Assembly: GCA_012839895.1 (NCBI GenBank)
Contig: DUML01000063.1
Coordinates: forward strand, 1 to 34,852
Source: Peptococcaceae bacterium
GTDB lineage: Bacteria > Bacillota > Desulfitobacteriia > Desulfitobacteriales > Syntrophobotulaceae
DNA: 34,852 bases
Direction: 5' to 3'
Shown: positions 6,905-34,727 of the stretch, piece by piece
Layout of the letters: every line of letters starts with the position of its first letter
Position numbering within the stretch: position 1 is the first letter of the stretch
Notes under the pieces: generated by a model
The model's input: the letters and a program-made list of their open reading frames with translations, nothing else
What the model was told of the DNA's origin: nothing
Database searches by the model: none
Position numbers and translations under genes: made by a program

Positions 6905-6979
6905 AAGCTATCTCGCTTCAATAATAATCAGCCCTTCATAGTAGTCTATTTTAGTTAGCTAAGAAATATCTACTAGTTT

Positions 6980-7160
6980 AGTATATTTTTGCCTTACCCG
7001 TTCACCACGCGCCGAAGCTGTTCGCTTGCTGCTACAGCGACTGCACCTAAACCTCTGGGTATTTTACCCGCTGTGAACCACGGTGCAGTTTATCGCTGTA
7101 GCAGTTGCGCTCACGACGCTTCTCTGCTTAACGGTTCGCTAAGTAAGGCAAAAATATACT
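6980..7160. repeat. 181-bp imperfect inverted-repeat element
   Basis: The ends are perfect 18-base inverted repeats: AGTATATTTTTGCCTTAC at 6980-6997 and its reverse complement at 7143-7160. Inside, further arms match imperfectly, for example CTGCTACAGCGA on the left with TCGCTGTAGCAG on the right, and both arms continue to GGTGCAG/CTGCACC. The apex is a small hairpin GGGTA-TTT-TACCC at 7057-7069. It lies between the convergent floxA and RNase J genes. It has no coding content. It could be a MITE-like mobile element remnant, a palindromic intergenic repeat, or a bidirectional transcription stop. A clear target-site duplication was not seen. Confidence 0.75.
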
Positions 7161-7181: not shown

Positions 7182-8521
7182 TTAAATCTCCTGGATTATA
7201 GGGATAATCATGGGGCGGCGGCCTGTTTTAGTGTAAAGCAAGTTACCGATGGAATCTTTGAGGAGGGTTTTTATTGCCGACCATTGGCTGATGTCTTCCC
7301 GTTGGCAGCGGTAAATGGTATCTTTGATGACACTTTTTACTTCCTCGATTATTTCTTCGGAATCCCGGACATAGATAAATCCTCTGGTGACTACATCCGG
7401 GCCTATGGCAATGGTTCTGGACTCTTTATTTATGGTTACGACCGCAATTAAAATCCCTTCCTGGGACAGCTGTTTGCGATCTCTTAATACAGTGGTGCCC
7501 ACATCGCCTACGCCTAAGCCGTCAATGAGAATTCTCCCTCCGGGAACTGGTTCTACCATTTTAGCAGTATTATCGGAATACTCTATCACACTGCCTATTT
7601 CGGCGATAAAGATATTTTCCGGCGGTATTCCAAGATTCTGCGCCAACTGGGCATGTTTGACCAGCATCCGGTATTCGCCGTGGACGGGAATAAAGTATTT
7701 GGGACGGTATAGAGGTAGCCCAGTTCAGCGGCAATATTAATGACATTAACAATACTCCTGCCGGCAGCGGCGACTTTGCGGTCGTATTTAACAGCGGCAG
7801 TAATAGCTTGCTGTAAGCGGTGAATATTAGATGCAAAAGTGGCAAAAATAATTCTTCCTTTGGCATTAAAAAAGACTTGGTCAATATTTTCCCCCACTGT
7901 GCGTTCCGACTTGGTAAAACCGGGGCGTTCCACATTGGTGCTGTCGGAAAGCAGGAAGAGGACTCCCTTATAACCTAGCTCGGAATATTTGTGGATATCA
8001 AGGATGTCTCCGCTGACCGGGGTATGATCAAGTTTAAAATCCCCGGTATGGACAATTGTGCCTAACGGGGTGTGGATTGCCAAGCCCAGAGAGTCGGGGA
8101 TGCTGTGGCTGCCATTAATAAATTCTACTTTTAAAGTTCCCAGTTTGATGCTGTCACCGGCCTTGATTTCAATTAAGGTGGCTTTCTTGACATTGGCTTC
8201 TTCCAGCCTGGCTTTAATGATCCCGATGGTCAGTTTTGTACCGTAGACCGGGACATTAAGATCTTTTAGCAAGTAAGGCAAAGCCCCGATGTGATCCTCA
8301 TGCCCGTGGGTAATAAGTATAGCGCTGACCATTTCTTTGTTCTCCAAAAGATAAGAATAGTCGGGAATAACCAGGTCAATACCCAGCATGTCTTCGTCAG
8401 GAAAGGAAAGGCCCGCATCAATAACCAAGATTTCTTGGTTATATCGGATGACAGTCATGTTTTTTCCGATTTCCCCGAGTCCTCCCAAAGGGATGATTTG
8501 TAGTTTTTTTGTTCTGCTCAA
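7182..8521 (-). pseudogene. rnj: Ribonuclease J, disrupted by an internal frame-shifting deletion
   Basis: RNase J is the metallo-beta-lactamase/beta-CASP nuclease (5'-exonuclease and endonuclease) central to mRNA decay in Firmicutes. The gene starts at TTG 8521 with GGAGG upstream. The first part has LGGLGEIGKNM, the metal motif THGHEDHIG and HTGDFKLDH. It reads correctly to AAELGYL near 7715. There the frame breaks: the correct continuation RPKYFIPVHGEYRM lies in another frame from about 7706, and from there the C-terminal part runs intact to TAA at 7182. Compared with the usual length of about 555 residues, roughly 110 residues are missing at the junction, including the beta-CASP GSQGEP and SGH motifs. 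As written the product would stop after 308 residues with about 40 foreign ones. The loss is either a real deletion or a collapsed assembly. Confidence 0.88.
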
Positions 8522-9690: not shown

Positions 9691-11559
9691 ATGATTAATA
9701 TTATCTATGCTGTTCCTGAAGATATTGAAGTTGTAGAAAAAATTGCTCAAAGTATCGGTAATAAGGATGTTGTGTTTAAAGCGGTCGGCGAAATAGATAT
9801 GAATGTAGTTAATATTATGGAAGAGGGATGGGATAGCGAAAATACCATTATAATCGCTAGAGGGATTACCTATTTAACCATAAGAAAAAAATTCAAACAT
9901 GCCCATGTTCTAGAATTAACTGTTACGGGCTATGACATAATGCGGGGCATAGAAGAATGCAAAAACAAGTATAAGGCCAAAAAAATTGCTGTTATCCTTT
10001 CGGAAAGTATTGTTATTGAGAAAGAGTTCATTGATCGGATAATGGATGTTGAAGTTTCTGTTTTTCCTGTTCGCGATCATACCCATGTAGTTGATGTTTA
10101 CAATAAGGTAAAAAATATGGATATCGATGTTATCTTAGCCGGTCTGACTGTGTCCCGCTTAGCCGAAAAAGATAACCTTCGTTGTGTAGTAATTTCTAAC
10201 AGTTATGAAACCAACAAAATTGTGATTGGCGAGGCTTTTAATATTGCCAAGGCTATTATTGAAGAACGCAAAAGGAATGAACTAATTAAAATCATTTTGG
10301 AGAATACAAATGACGGGATTATTGCCGTCGATAATATGGGAGTTATCACCGCTTACAATGAGGCATTTTTTAACATCTTGAATATACCTAAAAAAACCGT
10401 CCTAAAAGGGAAAACAATTTCTTCGATATCGCCTAAGCTGGAGCAAATCCAGTATTCTTTGCTGGATTATCAAGAAGCAAATATTGTTAAAAGAGTTAAT
10501 AATAAGATGGTTGTTATTAATACCAAGCCAATTGTTATTGATAATAAAACACTGGGTACTGTTTTGTTTATTCAAAACATTGATGTTTTACAAAAAACAG
10601 AGATTGATATTCGCCAAAAATTAAGTAAAAAGGGTTTAGTCGCCAGGTATAATTTCAACAGTATTATTGGAAACAGTGAGGCTATTCGTAAAACTATCCA
10701 GGTAGCTAAAAAGTACGCCGAGGCCAGTTCGAACGTTCTTATTATCGGGGAAACCGGGACGGGAAAAGAACTATTTGCTCAAAGCATACACAACAGCAGC
10801 AAGAGAAGTTCTCAACCATTTGTGGCTATTAACTGCGCTGCTTTGCCGGAGCATTTGTTGGAAAGCGAGCTTTTTGGTTATGTAGAGGGGGCCTTTACCG
10901 GTGCAGCCCGGGGGGGTAAAACCGGGCTTTTTGAATTGGCACATAGAGGAACGCTGTTTTTGGATGAAATATCTGAACTCCCACTCGGTTTACAAGCCAA
11001 ATTGCTCCGGGTTCTTCAAGAAAAGGAAATACGCAGGCTTGGTGACGATAAAATTATACCTGTTGACATCCGGATTATTTCTGCTTCCAACGTTGATCTT
11101 ATGCAAAAAGTAAAAGAAAATAAATTTCGTCAGGATCTCCTTTACCGGCTTGATATATTAAGGCTTACAATTCCTCCCTTACGCCAACGCAAAGAGGATA
11201 TTAAGGAAATAGCCCAGCTGTTTGTTTCCAATTTTGCCGAAGACAAGGGGGATATACGGCTTACAGAGGATGCCATTGTCGAACTTGTGAAATATGACTG
11301 GCCTGGAAATATTAGAGAACTTAAAAATATCTGTGAAAGATTGACGGTATTATGTACGAATAACGAAATAACCGGACAAGATGTCCGGGACATCTTTGAG
11401 CAGAATTTAATTAAAAACTTTGAATACAGTAGCAGCGATAAACTGACAATTGACAAAGCAGGCAAGAAAAAGATGACCCAACAGGATATTGCCAAAATGC
11501 TGGGAATCAGCCGAACCACTCTTTGGCGTAAAACCAGGCAAAAAAACGCTATAAATTAA
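9691..11559 (+). CDS. Sigma-54-dependent activator with PrpR_N, PAS and AAA+ domains
   Basis: The 622-residue protein is a bacterial enhancer-binding protein. Residues 1-190 look like the PrpR_N sensor domain, known to sense 2-methylcitrate in propionate regulators. About 200-310 form a PAS domain (NTNDGIIAVDNMGVITAYNE). The AAA+ domain has Walker A GETGTGKE at 353-360, the sigma-54 contact loop GAFTGA at 400-405 and Walker B FLDE with D425/E426. The C terminus carries a Fis-type helix-turn-helix (QDIAKMLGISRTTLWRK). GGAGG lies 11 bases before the ATG. No sigma-54 promoter was found beside it, so its targets are probably elsewhere. A paralogue is at 28063. The ligand is unknown. Confidence 0.92.
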   Translation: MINIIYAVPEDIEVVEKIAQSIGNKDVVFKAVGEIDMNVVNIMEEGWDSENTIIIARGITYLTIRKKFKHAHVLELTVTGYDIMRGIEECKNKYKAKKIAVILSESIVIEKEFIDRIMDVEVSVFPVRDHTHVVDVYNKVKNMDIDVILAGLTVSRLAEKDNLRCVVISNSYETNKIVIGEAFNIAKAIIEERKRNELIKIILENTNDGIIAVDNMGVITAYNEAFFNILNIPKKTVLKGKTISSISPKLEQIQYSLLDYQEANIVKRVNNKMVVINTKPIVIDNKTLGTVLFIQNIDVLQKTEIDIRQKLSKKGLVARYNFNSIIGNSEAIRKTIQVAKKYAEASSNVLIIGETGTGKELFAQSIHNSSKRSSQPFVAINCAALPEHLLESELFGYVEGAFTGAARGGKTGLFELAHRGTLFLDEISELPLGLQAKLLRVLQEKEIRRLGDDKIIPVDIRIISASNVDLMQKVKENKFRQDLLYRLDILRLTIPPLRQRKEDIKEIAQLFVSNFAEDKGDIRLTEDAIVELVKYDWPGNIRELKNICERLTVLCTNNEITGQDVRDIFEQNLIKNFEYSSSDKLTIDKAGKKKMTQQDIAKMLGISRTTLWRKTRQKNAIN

Positions 11560-28062: not shown

Positions 28063-29985
28063 ATGATTAATATTGTGGTGATCAAACCCTACGACGGAAT
28101 AGAGAAGGTTATAAAAGAAGCTTTTGAAGAACATCCTCTAAGGAATAGCTTGTCTTACGAGATTATTGACACTCTTGCGCCCCTTGCTTTAGAAAAAGCT
28201 CAGCCCTTTAATTATGTTTTTTCGCCTCAGACCGATGTGGTTATTGCCCGTTATTTTTCGGCACAGCATATTAGAAACCAAAAGATTACCTGTATCGAGA
28301 TTGCTCTTACCGGCTATGATGTGGTAATTGCGATTAATGAATGTATAAAATTATACAACCCAAAGAAGATAGCGGTTTTTACCCCTAAAGACACGCTTTA
28401 TGAAGCAAGCAATCTTATAGAAATATACAAGCAGCAGGAAATAATTTTGATGGAAATTACGGATCTGGATACTCTTCAGGAACAGCTAAACCAAGCCAAG
28501 GCTAATGGCGTTGATGCAGTAGTCGGCGGCTTGATAGTCGTTGAGTCAGCCAGAAAACTCGGCATGCAAGGCGTACTAACGCGCTTAAGTAAAATGAATA
28601 TCACAAAAGCAATAAATGATGCCATTCAAATCGTTGAAATCACCCGCAAGAAAAACGAAGAAAACAAAAGACTAAGGGGTATCATGGACTATTCTTTTGG
28701 TGGTATTATCTCAACAGATTCGGATGGAAATATTATTCTAATAAATCGTCATGCCCAAGAATTTTTTGGCTATGATGTGCAAAAAGCGGGCCCCAAAACC
28801 ATTTGGGATTTGCTGCCTGACTTGTCTCGGGACGCAATTAAGAACGGTGATGTAATTGAAGATGAATTAATGAAAATAAAAGGAACATTAATTACTTTTA
28901 ATATGGTTCCTATTTCAGGGAAAAACGGTAATAGCGGTGTTGTGATTACCTTTCAAAAAGTAACTGCCATTCAGAAACTGGAAGGAAAAATTCGTAATAA
29001 AATTCATGAAAAAGGATTTTACGCTCGCTATCGCTTTTCTGATATTATTACCAAAAGTCCAACAATGTTGGAATGCATAGAAAGGGCTCGTCGTTTTAGC
29101 AAAGTTAACTCAAACGTATTATTAATCGGTGAAACCGGAACTGGTAAAGAGATGTTCGCCCAAAGTATACACAATGAAAGCCAGCGCCGTGACGGACCCT
29201 TTGTCGCTATAAATTGCGCGGCATTGCCGGAAGCTCTTCTGGAAAGTGAGCTATTCGGTTATGTAGACGGTGCCTTTACCGGAGCGGCCAAAGGCGGCAA
29301 AGCCGGCCTGTTTGAGATCGCTCATAACGGAACAATTTTTTTAGATGAGATACAGGATATTTCAGCAAAATTGCAAGGACGTCTCCTTAGGGTCATCGAA
29401 GAGAGAGAAATAATACGGCTTGGGCATGACCGGGTAACATCTATTGATGTAAGAATTATTTCAGCTTCAAATCAGGATTTGTGGCGAAAAGTGGAACGGG
29501 GTGAATTTAGGAGCGATTTGCTCTATCGCTTAGACGTTCTTCAATTGGAAATTCCACCTTTGGCCCAGAGAGACCAAGATGTTTTGCTTCTTGCGGAATA
29601 TTTCATTGCCAACCATGATTTCGGCTTCAAATCCACTGTTAAGGAAATATCACCGGAAGGTAAATTGCTTCTCATGGAATACACTTGGCCCGGCAATATA
29701 CGGGAATTACGCAATTTTTGCGAACGTTTATGTGTTACATGCGACAAACCCATAGCTGATGCCAAAGATGTAAAGAGAGCGCTTTATGGCGGAAATATAA
29801 TTCCTATAAACCTTTCTGAAAAACCCAAGCAAGCAGGGCCGTCGGTAACTATGAAAGAGATGGAGAAGAAAATTATTCTTGACACTTTGGTATTATGTGG
29901 TGGTAGTAAGAAGATGGCAGCCCGAGAATTAGGGTGGTCAAAAAGCACCTTGTGGCGGAAAATGAAAGAACATGGAATTAGTTAA
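28063..29985 (+). CDS. Second sigma-54-dependent activator with PrpR_N, PAS and AAA+ domains
   Basis: The 640-residue protein has the same plan as the activator at 9691. A PrpR_N-like sensor covers 1-200 (CIEIALTGYDVVIAINECIK, AVVGGLIVVESARKLG). A PAS domain covers about 210-310 (MDYSFGGIISTDSDGNIILI). The AAA+ domain has Walker A GETGTGKE at 356-363, GAFTGA at 403-408 and Walker B IFLDE near 426-430. The C-terminal Fis-type helix-turn-helix is MAARELGWSKSTLWRKMKEH. GAGGAGG lies 15 bases before the ATG, rather far. The sigma-54 promoter at 30281 in front of tctBAC is its obvious target; the ligand is probably the transported carboxylate or a metabolite. Confidence 0.93.
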   Translation: MINIVVIKPYDGIEKVIKEAFEEHPLRNSLSYEIIDTLAPLALEKAQPFNYVFSPQTDVVIARYFSAQHIRNQKITCIEIALTGYDVVIAINECIKLYNPKKIAVFTPKDTLYEASNLIEIYKQQEIILMEITDLDTLQEQLNQAKANGVDAVVGGLIVVESARKLGMQGVLTRLSKMNITKAINDAIQIVEITRKKNEENKRLRGIMDYSFGGIISTDSDGNIILINRHAQEFFGYDVQKAGPKTIWDLLPDLSRDAIKNGDVIEDELMKIKGTLITFNMVPISGKNGNSGVVITFQKVTAIQKLEGKIRNKIHEKGFYARYRFSDIITKSPTMLECIERARRFSKVNSNVLLIGETGTGKEMFAQSIHNESQRRDGPFVAINCAALPEALLESELFGYVDGAFTGAAKGGKAGLFEIAHNGTIFLDEIQDISAKLQGRLLRVIEEREIIRLGHDRVTSIDVRIISASNQDLWRKVERGEFRSDLLYRLDVLQLEIPPLAQRDQDVLLLAEYFIANHDFGFKSTVKEISPEGKLLLMEYTWPGNIRELRNFCERLCVTCDKPIADAKDVKRALYGGNIIPINLSEKPKQAGPSVTMKEMEKKIILDTLVLCGGSKKMAARELGWSKSTLWRKMKEHGIS

Positions 29986-30280: not shown

Positions 30281-30296
30281 TGGCATAGAATTTGCA
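30281..30296 (+). promoter_or_regulatory. Sigma-54 (-24/-12) promoter of the tct operon
   Basis: TGGCATAGAATTTGCA matches the sigma-54 consensus TGGCAC-N5-TTGCA, with the invariant GG (30282-30283) and GC (30294-30295) exactly 10 bases apart. Transcription should start near 30307. The activator gene upstream supplies the required ATPase. Confidence 0.88.
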
Positions 30297-30330: not shown

Positions 30331-30378
30331 ATGAGGGAAGAATTGTGGAAAAGAAGGGGGGATAATTTCGCAGAATGA
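30331..30378 (+). CDS. 15-codon leader ORF coupled to tctB
   Basis: ATG 30331 has a strong CCGGAGGA (30313-30320) and opens MREELWKRRGDNFAE. Its TGA (30376-30378) overlaps the tctB ATG (30375-30377) as ATGA. It is the first ORF after the sigma-54 start. The tctB ATG itself has only a distant purine-rich tract (30348-30361), so tctB may be translated by coupling to this leader. No protein family is recognised; the peptide may have no function of its own. Confidence 0.5.
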   Translation: MREELWKRRGDNFAE

Positions 30379-30815
30379 AATCTGACAAAATTGGCGGATT
30401 GATTGGTATTATAATCGGGTTATTCTCTATATCAGAAGCCTTTAGGATGTATCCTTACAGGGTCAATAACGCAGTAGGAGATCATGTTATGCCTGCAGTT
30501 GTAGGAGGCTTGTTAATTCTGTTGGGGGTGATAATGATAATCTTCAAGACCGAAAAATTTGAGGTTAAATTTCCTGAACGGTCTATGATTATCAAAATCT
30601 CATCGACACTTGGGGTGCTTCTACTATATTGGGTCATGCTGCATTTCTTAGGTTACACCCTCAGCACTTTCTTGGCAGGTTTGCTTCTCTTTAGAATTAT
30701 TGGCTCCTATAGCATTCTGAAAACCATTTCTTTCGCCGCTCTAACCATCGCTGCGCTGTATCTGGTGTTTATCTACTGGCTGAATATGCCCTTTCCAGCA
30801 TGGATATGGGGTTAA
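30375..30815 (+). CDS. tctB: Tripartite tricarboxylate transporter, small membrane subunit TctB
   Basis: TctB is the small four-helix membrane subunit of TTT transporters, which import citrate-like and other carboxylates using an ion gradient. The 146-residue protein has about four hydrophobic segments at roughly 7-20, 38-58, 77-100 and 108-138. An early RMYPYRVNNAVGDHVMPAVV stretch (about 24-43) precedes the second. Sequence of TctB is poorly conserved, so the call rests on size, topology and the adjoining tctA. It is coupled to a leader ORF. Confidence 0.85.
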   Translation: MKSDKIGGLIGIIIGLFSISEAFRMYPYRVNNAVGDHVMPAVVGGLLILLGVIMIIFKTEKFEVKFPERSMIIKISSTLGVLLLYWVMLHFLGYTLSTFLAGLLLFRIIGSYSILKTISFAALTIAALYLVFIYWLNMPFPAWIWG

Positions 30816-30827
30816 GGAGGTATCTGC

Positions 30828-32348
30828 GTGGAACAATTGAGTATGCTTCTGGATGGATTTATGGGAGCCTTAACACCAATAAACTTGGCCATGGCTGTTC
30901 TTGGTTCCTTAGTTGGAACTTTAGTTGGGGTTCTTCCCGGCTTGGGACCTACCTCCGCTATCGCTATTCTTTTACCCTTAACCACAGTATTGGGTCCTAT
31001 CCAAGGTCTGATCATGCTGGCGGCTATTTATTACGGGGCCATGTATGGAGGGTCTACCACCGCAATTTTATTAAATATTCCCGGTGAGGTTGCCGCTGTC
31101 CCTACTTGTCTGGATGGTCATCCTTTAGCTAAACAAGGGCGGGGCGGACCGGCTTTAGGTATTGCAGCCATCAGTTCCTTCGTTGCCGGTACCATAGGTG
31201 TGGTAGGTTTGGTATTTTTTGCGCCTCTCTTAGCCGATCAGGCTTTAAAATTCGGTCCGCCGGAATATTTTGCTTTAATGCTCCTGGCAATCACGATTAT
31301 CGTGAATTTATCAGGAAGCTCTATCATTAAGGGACTGCTTATGGGTTTGTTGGGATTTGTCCTCTCAATGATAGGTATTGCCCCGGTAGGCGGACAGGTA
31401 CGTTTTACCTTTGGAATACCCGTCCTGGCCGGGGGCCTGGATATGATCAGCATAGTCATAGGTTTGTTTGCCATCAGTGAAGTGCTTAAAGGACTGGAGA
31501 GTAAACAGGTTACCATATCAAAAGGCAATATTGGCAGCATTTATCCTACCAGAAAGGATTTGAAACAAAGTTTTCCTGCCATGCTACGGGGCGGATTTGT
31601 CGGTTTTTTGCTTGGGCTTCTGCCTGGTTGTTCACCGGCAGTGACCACCTTTATGGCTTATGACCTTGAAAAGAAAGTATCAAAAACTCCGGAAAGGTTT
31701 GGTAAAGGGGCGATTGAAGGTGTAGCCGCCCCGGAAGCTGCAAATAATTCCACAAGTTCAGCGGGCTTTATCCCCTTATTCGCTCTTGGCATACCTACTA
31801 CACCTGCTTTAGCCGTTCTATTGGCGGGATTAATGATTTACGGACTGCAACCCGGGCCTCTTCTTTTTGAACAGGGGGAAAGTTTTGTCTGGACGATTAT
31901 TGCCAGTATGTTTATCGGCAATGCTATGTTGTTGATTTTGAACTTACCGTTAATCGGCATTTGGATACAACTTACCAGAATACCTTACGGAATTATGGCG
32001 CCGATTATTCTATTGTTAAGTATCATCGGCGGGTATACCGTCAGAAACAGTATGTTTGATGTCCTGGTCGCCATAATTTTCGGCGTTCTCGGTTATTTCT
32101 TTAATAAATACAGATGGCCGGTAGTTCCCTTGATTTTAACCTTTATATTAGGACCAACCCTGGAAAAGTCTTTCGTTCAATCTATAGCCCTTCCGCCGGG
32201 AGGATTTGGGATTTTCTTTACCCGCCCCATATCCTTAGCTCTTATCCTAATGGCTGTTGCCCTTCTGGTGGTTTCTTTGTTCTTGATTAAAAGAACTAAA
32301 CAGCAAGCCCAGGCAGCAGTGGGGGAAGAAGTGGATATTTCTGAGTAG
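30828..32348 (+). CDS. tctA: Tripartite tricarboxylate transporter, large membrane subunit TctA
   Basis: TctA is the main permease, with about 10-12 membrane segments in 506 residues. Family motifs are GVLPGLGPTSAIAILLPL near 28-45, GAMYGGSTTAILLNIPGE near 68-85, and the repeated half GLLPGCSPAVTTFMAY near 262-277 with FIPLFALGIPTTPALAVLLA near 310-329. The start is GTG 30828 with TTAAGGAGGT just before it. It ends in a hairpin shared with the gap before tctC. The substrate cannot be inferred from TctA. Confidence 0.95.
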   Translation: MEQLSMLLDGFMGALTPINLAMAVLGSLVGTLVGVLPGLGPTSAIAILLPLTTVLGPIQGLIMLAAIYYGAMYGGSTTAILLNIPGEVAAVPTCLDGHPLAKQGRGGPALGIAAISSFVAGTIGVVGLVFFAPLLADQALKFGPPEYFALMLLAITIIVNLSGSSIIKGLLMGLLGFVLSMIGIAPVGGQVRFTFGIPVLAGGLDMISIVIGLFAISEVLKGLESKQVTISKGNIGSIYPTRKDLKQSFPAMLRGGFVGFLLGLLPGCSPAVTTFMAYDLEKKVSKTPERFGKGAIEGVAAPEAANNSTSSAGFIPLFALGIPTTPALAVLLAGLMIYGLQPGPLLFEQGESFVWTIIASMFIGNAMLLILNLPLIGIWIQLTRIPYGIMAPIILLLSIIGGYTVRNSMFDVLVAIIFGVLGYFFNKYRWPVVPLILTFILGPTLEKSFVQSIALPPGGFGIFFTRPISLALILMAVALLVVSLFLIKRTKQQAQAAVGEEVDISE

Positions 32349-32410: not shown

Positions 32411-33424
32411 ATGAGCAAAAAGATTCTAAGTTGTATCTTGGTGACGTTCCTTATTCTTACACTGACTATTGCCGGTTGTTCTTCAGCGCCGTCAGGCAAC
32501 GCTCCACAGGAAAAGGAGAACCCTCCTTATCCCGAAAAACAGATTGATATCATAGTTCCCTTCGCAGCAGGCGGCGGACTTGATCTGGTCGGACGCGCTA
32601 TTGCTGAATACATGACTAAAGAATGGGGACAGGCCGTAAATGTTATCAATAAGCCAGGTGCAGCCGGTGCTATCGGTAACACAGAAGCTTTAAAAGGATC
32701 TAAACCCGATGGCTATACAGCCTTAATCGCAGGGCTGAACAATTCCTCGGCACTATAGGCCGGCACTCCGAATTTGGAGTTTACTATGGATGACTTTAAA
32801 TGGGCAGGAAAGCTGGTAGAAGATCCAATTGCTGTAATCGTCAAAGCGGATGCTCCTTGGAATAGCCTTGAAGAGTTCGCTGAATGGGCCAAAGCCAACC
32901 CGGAAAAGGTTACTTACGGCACTACAGGACCTACAGGACGGCCTACATTCTCCATTGCAGAGCTTTTCGACAAATTAGGTATTGATTTCAGCAAGACTAA
33001 CATGATTGTAACAAGCGGCGCGTCAGAAATAATATCACAAATTGCGGGCGGACATGTGCATATAGGAATGAATTCCGTAAGCGAAGTATCCAATATGGTC
33101 AAAGCCGGAAAAATAAAAATGCTGGCTGTAACAACCAAAAGCTCCTATTTCCCGGATGTTCCTACCATGGAAGAGCTCGGTTATAACGATTTTAAAGTGA
33201 ATTGGTGGTTAGGGGTCGCTTTCCCCAAGGATACCCCGGACTATATAGTGGAAAAATGGGAAAAAGCTATGGAAAAAGCTTCAACAGATACGGAATTCCT
33301 GAAGAAATTAGAATCCTTTAACTCTGAAGTATCCTATCTTAGTGCTGCCGAGGTTAAAAAACTTGCTGATGAACAGTATCGTGAACTCACTGATTTGGCA
33401 ATTAAATTTGGTCTGCGCAAATAA
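32411..33424 (+). pseudogene. tctC: TctC substrate-binding protein with one in-frame TAG
   Basis: TctC is the extracytoplasmic binding protein that delivers substrate to TctAB. Start ATG 32411 with GGGAG (32401-32405); a lipobox LTIAGC follows a signal peptide. The domain begins IDIIVPFAAGGGLDLVGRAI. TAG at 32756-32758 (codon 116, after GLNNSSAL) interrupts it, and the same frame resumes AGTPNLEFTMDDFKWAGKLV to TAA at 33424. The whole frame is about 337 codons, the normal TctC size, with no other damage. The likely cause is a point mutation such as CAG to TAG. A sequencing error or suppression of the codon is possible. Without it only a 115-residue fragment is made. Confidence 0.9.
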
Positions 33425-33504: not shown

Positions 33505-33554
33505 AAAGCACAAGACCCTGTTTAACTAAGTAGCTTAAATTGAAAGGATTACTT

Positions 33555-34727
33555 ATGAGCAATCTACTTATTTATGCAGAAACTATACTATTCGGCAAAG
33601 AATTGACCGTCAAAAAGGATCATTGCCTGATCATAAGTGATGGTAAAATCAAAGAGATATTGCCCAAAAGGGACGGCTTAGCCAAAATTCAGCCGGGATG
33701 GGAAGTAATTGATCTTGGCAAAGTTACTTTGATGCCGGGAATGATTGAAAGTCACAATCATCTGGCATTAGATGCCAGGCTCCATGGCCACCTTGAAATG
33801 ATGGACAGTGAACCGTCCAAGTTAACGATTCTGGCCTTAAATTCCCTGAAAGACGATTTGCTGTCAGGTGTTACCACAGCCAGGTGCATGGGTGATCGGC
33901 ATTATATTGACACCACTCTCAAGGAAGAAATAGCCAATGGTCGAGTAATAGGCCCTAATCTAATTGTCAGTGGTATAGGCATGCGCGGTCGCCATGGGCA
34001 TGGATTTGTGGGCATCCCTCATTCCGGTGTAGAAGAAATTAGAAAAACCTGTAGAGAAAACCTTTTCAGAGGTTGCGATCATTTGAAAGTGTTTATCACC
34101 GGTGGCGCACCTCCTGAAAATAGCACCCATATCCCCTACTATTTATCTTTCGAGGAAATAAAGACAGTTGTTGATGAAGGAGCGCAACTTGGAGTTACGG
34201 TATCATCACATTGTATTGGCGGACAAGGGCTTAAAGTAGCCGTTGCAGCTGGAGTACATGCTTTCGATCATTTGTATTGTGCATCTGATGAGGAAATTGA
34301 ACTTTTAATAAAAAACGATAAATGGGCTGTTCTTACGTCCGGTGTTTTTCTGGATCCTGCACGAGAAGAATTTTGTCCCCCTAAAAAAGTTGCTGCTGTT
34401 AGAAGGTGCAGGGAACAAGTTAGGGAAAGAATGAAGACATTGATTAAAAGCGGTATAAAGTATGCTTTAGGGACTGACGGTAACCATACTTTCTTATATA
34501 AGGAAGTGGTATATGCCCGGGAACTGGGCGCCTCTGCAGTTGATGCCTTAAAAGGCGTCACAGTCCGAGCAGCTGAGCTGTGCGGCATTTCCCATAAAAC
34601 CGGCTATATACACGATAATATGGATGCAGATATCATCGCCGTTAAAGGAAACCCCCTTGAGGATGCTAATACCTTAAAGAATGTTTGTTTTGTAATGAAA
34701 AATGGTGTTATTTATAAGCGGTTTTAA
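33555..34727 (+). CDS. Metal-dependent amidohydrolase
   Basis: The enzyme belongs to the amidohydrolase superfamily, near imidazolonepropionase-like and aryldialkylphosphatase-like members, which hydrolyse C-N or related bonds of cyclic or linear amides. I chose ATG 33555, with GAAAGGA 6 bases upstream, over TTG 33540. The protein has 390 residues. The metal ligands all seem present: H67 and H69 in ESHNH, K178 (probably carboxylated) in DHLKVFITGG, H219 in SSHCIGG, H239 in AFDHLY and D308 in LGTDGNH. The C-terminal barrel strand DADIIAVKGNPLED is typical. It lies after tctBAC, so the imported compound may be its substrate. The precise substrate is unknown. Confidence 0.88.
   Translation: MSNLLIYAETILFGKELTVKKDHCLIISDGKIKEILPKRDGLAKIQPGWEVIDLGKVTLMPGMIESHNHLALDARLHGHLEMMDSEPSKLTILALNSLKDDLLSGVTTARCMGDRHYIDTTLKEEIANGRVIGPNLIVSGIGMRGRHGHGFVGIPHSGVEEIRKTCRENLFRGCDHLKVFITGGAPPENSTHIPYYLSFEEIKTVVDEGAQLGVTVSSHCIGGQGLKVAVAAGVHAFDHLYCASDEEIELLIKNDKWAVLTSGVFLDPAREEFCPPKKVAAVRRCREQVRERMKTLIKSGIKYALGTDGNHTFLYKEVVYARELGASAVDALKGVTVRAAELCGISHKTGYIHDNMDADIIAVKGNPLEDANTLKNVCFVMKNGVIYKRF

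Follow-up and report, generated by a model that had tools for sequence, protein, structure and literature searches.

The tctC-type solute-binding protein gene of a TTT operon in a Peptococcaceae genome is a single reading frame with one in-frame TAG at codon 116, and it is probable that this TAG is a real nonsense mutation by which the operon has lost its binding protein. The window, that is, the whole stretch of 34,852 nucleotides that was analysed, corresponds to contig C62, one of the 132 contigs of a draft genome of 2.84 Mb that is estimated to be 98.66% complete and 2.89% contaminated. From ATG 32411 to the TAA at 33422-33424 there is one frame of 337 positions, which is intact except for the single internal stop. 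The features of this region are as follows.

28063..29985, plus strand: sigma-54 activator gene with PrpR_N, PAS, AAA+ and Fis-type HTH domains (Pfam)
30281..30295, plus strand: sigma-54-type promoter-like site TGGCATAGAATTTGC, a motif match with one mismatch
30375..30815, plus strand: tctB, intact (PF07331)
30828..32348, plus strand: tctA, intact (PF01970)
32411..33424, plus strand: tctC-type solute-binding protein gene, interrupted, with a PF03401 match across both halves
32756..32758, plus strand: in-frame TAG, codon 116 of tctC, in a column that is not conserved among relatives
33128..33148 (approximate), plus strand: two-codon in-frame gap at the 'ER...PDVPT' motif, as compared with all aligned TctC relatives
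33540..34727, plus strand: amidohydrolase gene, intact, with a TTG start at 33540 (PF01979)

The 115 amino acids before the TAG score 27 bits against Pfam TctC, the 221 amino acids after it score 130 bits (E 1.6e-37), and when the TAG is read through the whole frame scores 165 bits over positions 2-266 of the 274 in the PF03401 profile. Since both halves match the family, the interrupted frame is not due to chance. A lipoprotein-type signal was recognized by eye, and PFAAGGGLD near residues 50-58 agrees with the domain 1 signature P-F-x-A-G-G-x-x-D that is given in a review of TTT systems (PMC5812351). In this signature, in the fold-wide match and in the tctB/tctA operon, the gene is like those of the TctC/Bug proteins (PF03401; BugD 2f5x, TctC 4x9t); it is unlike them in that the TAG at codon 116 leaves it without an uninterrupted open frame and in that two codons and an invariant Arg are missing near residue 243. 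An earlier note on this DNA had described a continuous frame of about 337 codons with one TAG and a TctC fold that continues after it, and both statements are borne out by these matches. Its further claim that there is no second lesion holds for stops and frameshifts and goes no further than that, because of the two-codon gap at the conserved 'ER' motif.

The TctC relatives with which the gene was compared are at most 47% identical to it. The nearest of them came from a search of 398 genomes in the phylum; it shows 47% identity and is ended by the end of its contig, and the best match in the public genome collection is a protein that is 32% identical. Alignment of homologues at codon 116, the check that the earlier note had proposed, gave a residue that is not conserved (V, A, N, H, Y or E, with a gap in some relatives and E in the nearest one), and no aligned relative has a stop, every one being a single open frame. 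Neither Lys nor Cys is found at this position in any of them. The two-codon gap falls at about residues 242-244, where the invariant Arg is gone and Lys stands in the aligned column; the Arg of 'ER...PDVPT' or a similar motif is kept in 26 of 26 relatives, and the five solved-structure alignments listed (including BugD, 4x9t, Bug27 and 2dvz) need a two-residue insertion at the gap. Judged from these alignments, the gap could stem from an in-frame deletion while selection was relaxed, or could be harmless natural variation, and together with the missing Arg it would be consistent with relaxed constraint on tctC. This Arg is one of two departures among the 42 columns in which at least 75% of the relatives agree; the other 40 are kept (17 of 18 before the TAG and 23 of 24 after it), and thus decay of the gene is slight at most. 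A stop would result from 4.3% of single substitutions in tctC, and from the lack of a second one it follows that the gene can have taken up no more than roughly 70 neutral substitutions since it was inactivated (95%, from stops only). With such a bound the age of the mutation is only weakly constrained, and the proposal in the earlier note that it is very recent is therefore unproved.

The rest of the operon is intact, as had been claimed before, with tctB, tctA and the amidohydrolase gene complete, the last having ATG 33555 as an alternative start, and with the sigma-54-like site present. This site lies between the sigma-54 activator gene and tctB; however, matches of this type number 4 in the window as against 1.7 expected, and therefore the site is weak taken alone. 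The product of the activator gene at 28063..29985 is likely to be the regulator of the tct operon. This gene, with its PrpR_N domain assigned by Pfam, directly precedes the operon, and a second sigma-54 activator of similar make-up is found in the window at 9691-11559. Elsewhere in the genome there are four other TctC genes, all open, two of them on contig C67 and one each on C75 and C77, and those on C67 and C77 are adjoined by TctA/TctB-like ORFs as judged by sequence and gene order. On C67 (L078) two TTT-like sets lie next to each other, both of which contain a TctC gene and a TctA-like ORF, and they are apparently a tandem duplication.

It is likely, then, that tctC was inactivated by a real nonsense mutation; that it no longer functions and that the stop arose by mutation is what we infer from the gene and its surroundings. 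The operon would consist of the sigma-54 activator, tctB, tctA, tctC and the amidohydrolase, and the nonsense mutation in tctC would remove its binding protein. Translation would stop at codon 116, in the transition region between domains 1 and 2, and the product would be a fragment of 115 residues without domain 2. With only such a fragment, the cognate transporter would either be inactive or depend on a binding protein borrowed from another system. Because the genome has four further TctC genes that are intact, the loss of this one is plausibly tolerated.

An error in base calling or in assembly could not be told apart from a nonsense mutation here, and this, together with the fragmentation of the assembly into 132 contigs, counts against the preferred reading, as does the retention of 40 of the 42 strongly conserved TctC positions. 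It is possible, though rather unlikely, that the real tctC is intact and that the TAG arose in sequencing or assembly, or belongs to only one allele in a mixed population. The draft state of the genome and its contamination of 2.9% would fit such an error, as would the intact remainder of the tctC frame with its domain 1 signature. On the other hand, when a genome sample of about 311 kb was scanned by codon usage for single in-frame stops in coding frames, a scan that covers in-frame stops only, tctC was the sole long protein gene with a single in-frame stop and no evident gene boundary, which argues that in-frame stop errors are not frequent here. Most of the other candidate interruptions in the sample, for example L101:3312 and L098:17157, appeared on inspection by eye to be ordinary neighbouring genes. 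The sample also has an in-frame TGA in a short HesB/IscA-like frame, '...EYEGYG-TGA-GGPKFRLALDE...', on the minus strand (L091:1876, contig C131 near 31876), which is probably a HesB-like selenoprotein (named by eye; the genome has a tRNA-Sec with anticodon TCA). A further broken gene on the same contig as tctC bears on both explanations.

7182-8521, minus strand: RNase J paralogue, broken, as compared with an intact copy on contig C1

This paralogue lacks about 100 codons and has a frame change near 7690-7712, which would suit a fault in the assembly of this contig. However, an intact RNase J is found on contig C1 (L087), and so the broken one may also be a real pseudogene, in which case it would support nonsense inactivation of tctC. 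Thus, tctC and RNase J could both be pseudogenes or both be assembly faults. In the intergenic region after the broken RNase J, at about 6950-7130, there is a long inverted-repeat-like stretch on the minus strand, TTTTTGCCTTAC... ...GTAAGGCAAAAATA; an Rfam search of the window, this stretch included, gave no match.

That the TAG is read through, whether by pyrrolysine, by another amber suppressor or by leaky termination, is very unlikely. In favour of read-through, the 221 codons after the TAG keep their frame, and Pyl genes are present in the lineage: of 74 genomes from the order, 29 have a PylS above the cut-off of its model, two of them of the same family. The model thus does detect PylS in this lineage, and in the present assembly the gene is absent, the best score being 35.6 bits where the cut-off is 178.15. 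Neither PylD (best 19.2 bits against a cut-off of 150.05) nor MttB, the usual pyrrolysine protein, was found in the genome. Among its 35 tRNAs ARAGORN reads none as CTA, a result to be taken with the caution that a general tRNA model could overlook tRNA-Pyl and that the list also lacks several of the standard tRNAs, such as all of those for isoleucine; the draft is thus without some tRNA genes and an absent tRNA alone is weak evidence. A UAG-selenocysteine reading was rejected because the tRNA-Sec has the anticodon TCA and not CUA, and UAG is therefore not its codon. TAG is also a common stop: when non-overlapping ORFs with 200 amino acids or more are counted, it terminates 42 of 173 in the 311 kb sample and, in the window, 8 of 24, in keeping with the at least eight genes ending in TAG that had been counted before. 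The RNA around the TAG folds no better than shuffled sequences (z -0.8 to -1.3), and transporter binding proteins are not among the known Pyl proteins. Because the tested machinery was not found, TAG is often used as a normal stop, codon 116 is unconserved with no TAG, Lys or Cys in relatives, and the RNA shows no more folding than shuffled sequence, programmed recoding is unlikely, and pyrrolysine was rejected for tctC. Regular translation of codon 116, giving full-length protein at a low level, is extremely improbable, whether through leaky termination under regulation or through an amber-reading tRNA that escaped detection. The idea that the two halves are separate functional genes, the second re-initiated at TTG 32774, is hardly credible and was also rejected: this TTG, five codons past the TAG, does start an ORF of 216 amino acids, but it has no clear ribosome-binding site ahead of it, the second part is without a signal peptide, and all aligned relatives are unsplit. 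The earlier note saw no pyl gene in view, which now extends genome-wide to PylS and PylD over their cut-offs, and we agree with it that a nonsense mutation or an error is likelier than suppression. With the tested TAG-reading machinery absent, an ordinary broken gene is most likely and a sequence error is less likely.

Truncated tctC genes beside tctA are known from four other genomes (PMC5812351), and the present case is like them in that a broken tctC lies beside an apparently intact tctA; it is unlike them in that the break is a single nonsense codon and that four more tctC genes, all intact, are present. In strain DCMF, a related bacterium, true pyrrolysine genes are accompanied by a full pyl cluster and code for methylamine methyltransferases (PMC6778437). 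As in its mttB, an in-frame TAG splits a gene here in a related group; unlike strain DCMF, this genome has no pyl genes or MttB that could be found, the codon is unconserved, and tctC does not code for a methylamine methyltransferase. Since a truncated tctC beside tctA has already been described, the finding is an ordinary one with little significance beyond this genome. A lone in-frame TAG is no evidence of recoding, even when pyrrolysine is common in the lineage concerned, and a genome-wide check of PylS, tRNAs and methyltransferase targets settles most of the recoding question. For this organism, the broken tctC is a caution against annotating its TTT system as functional.
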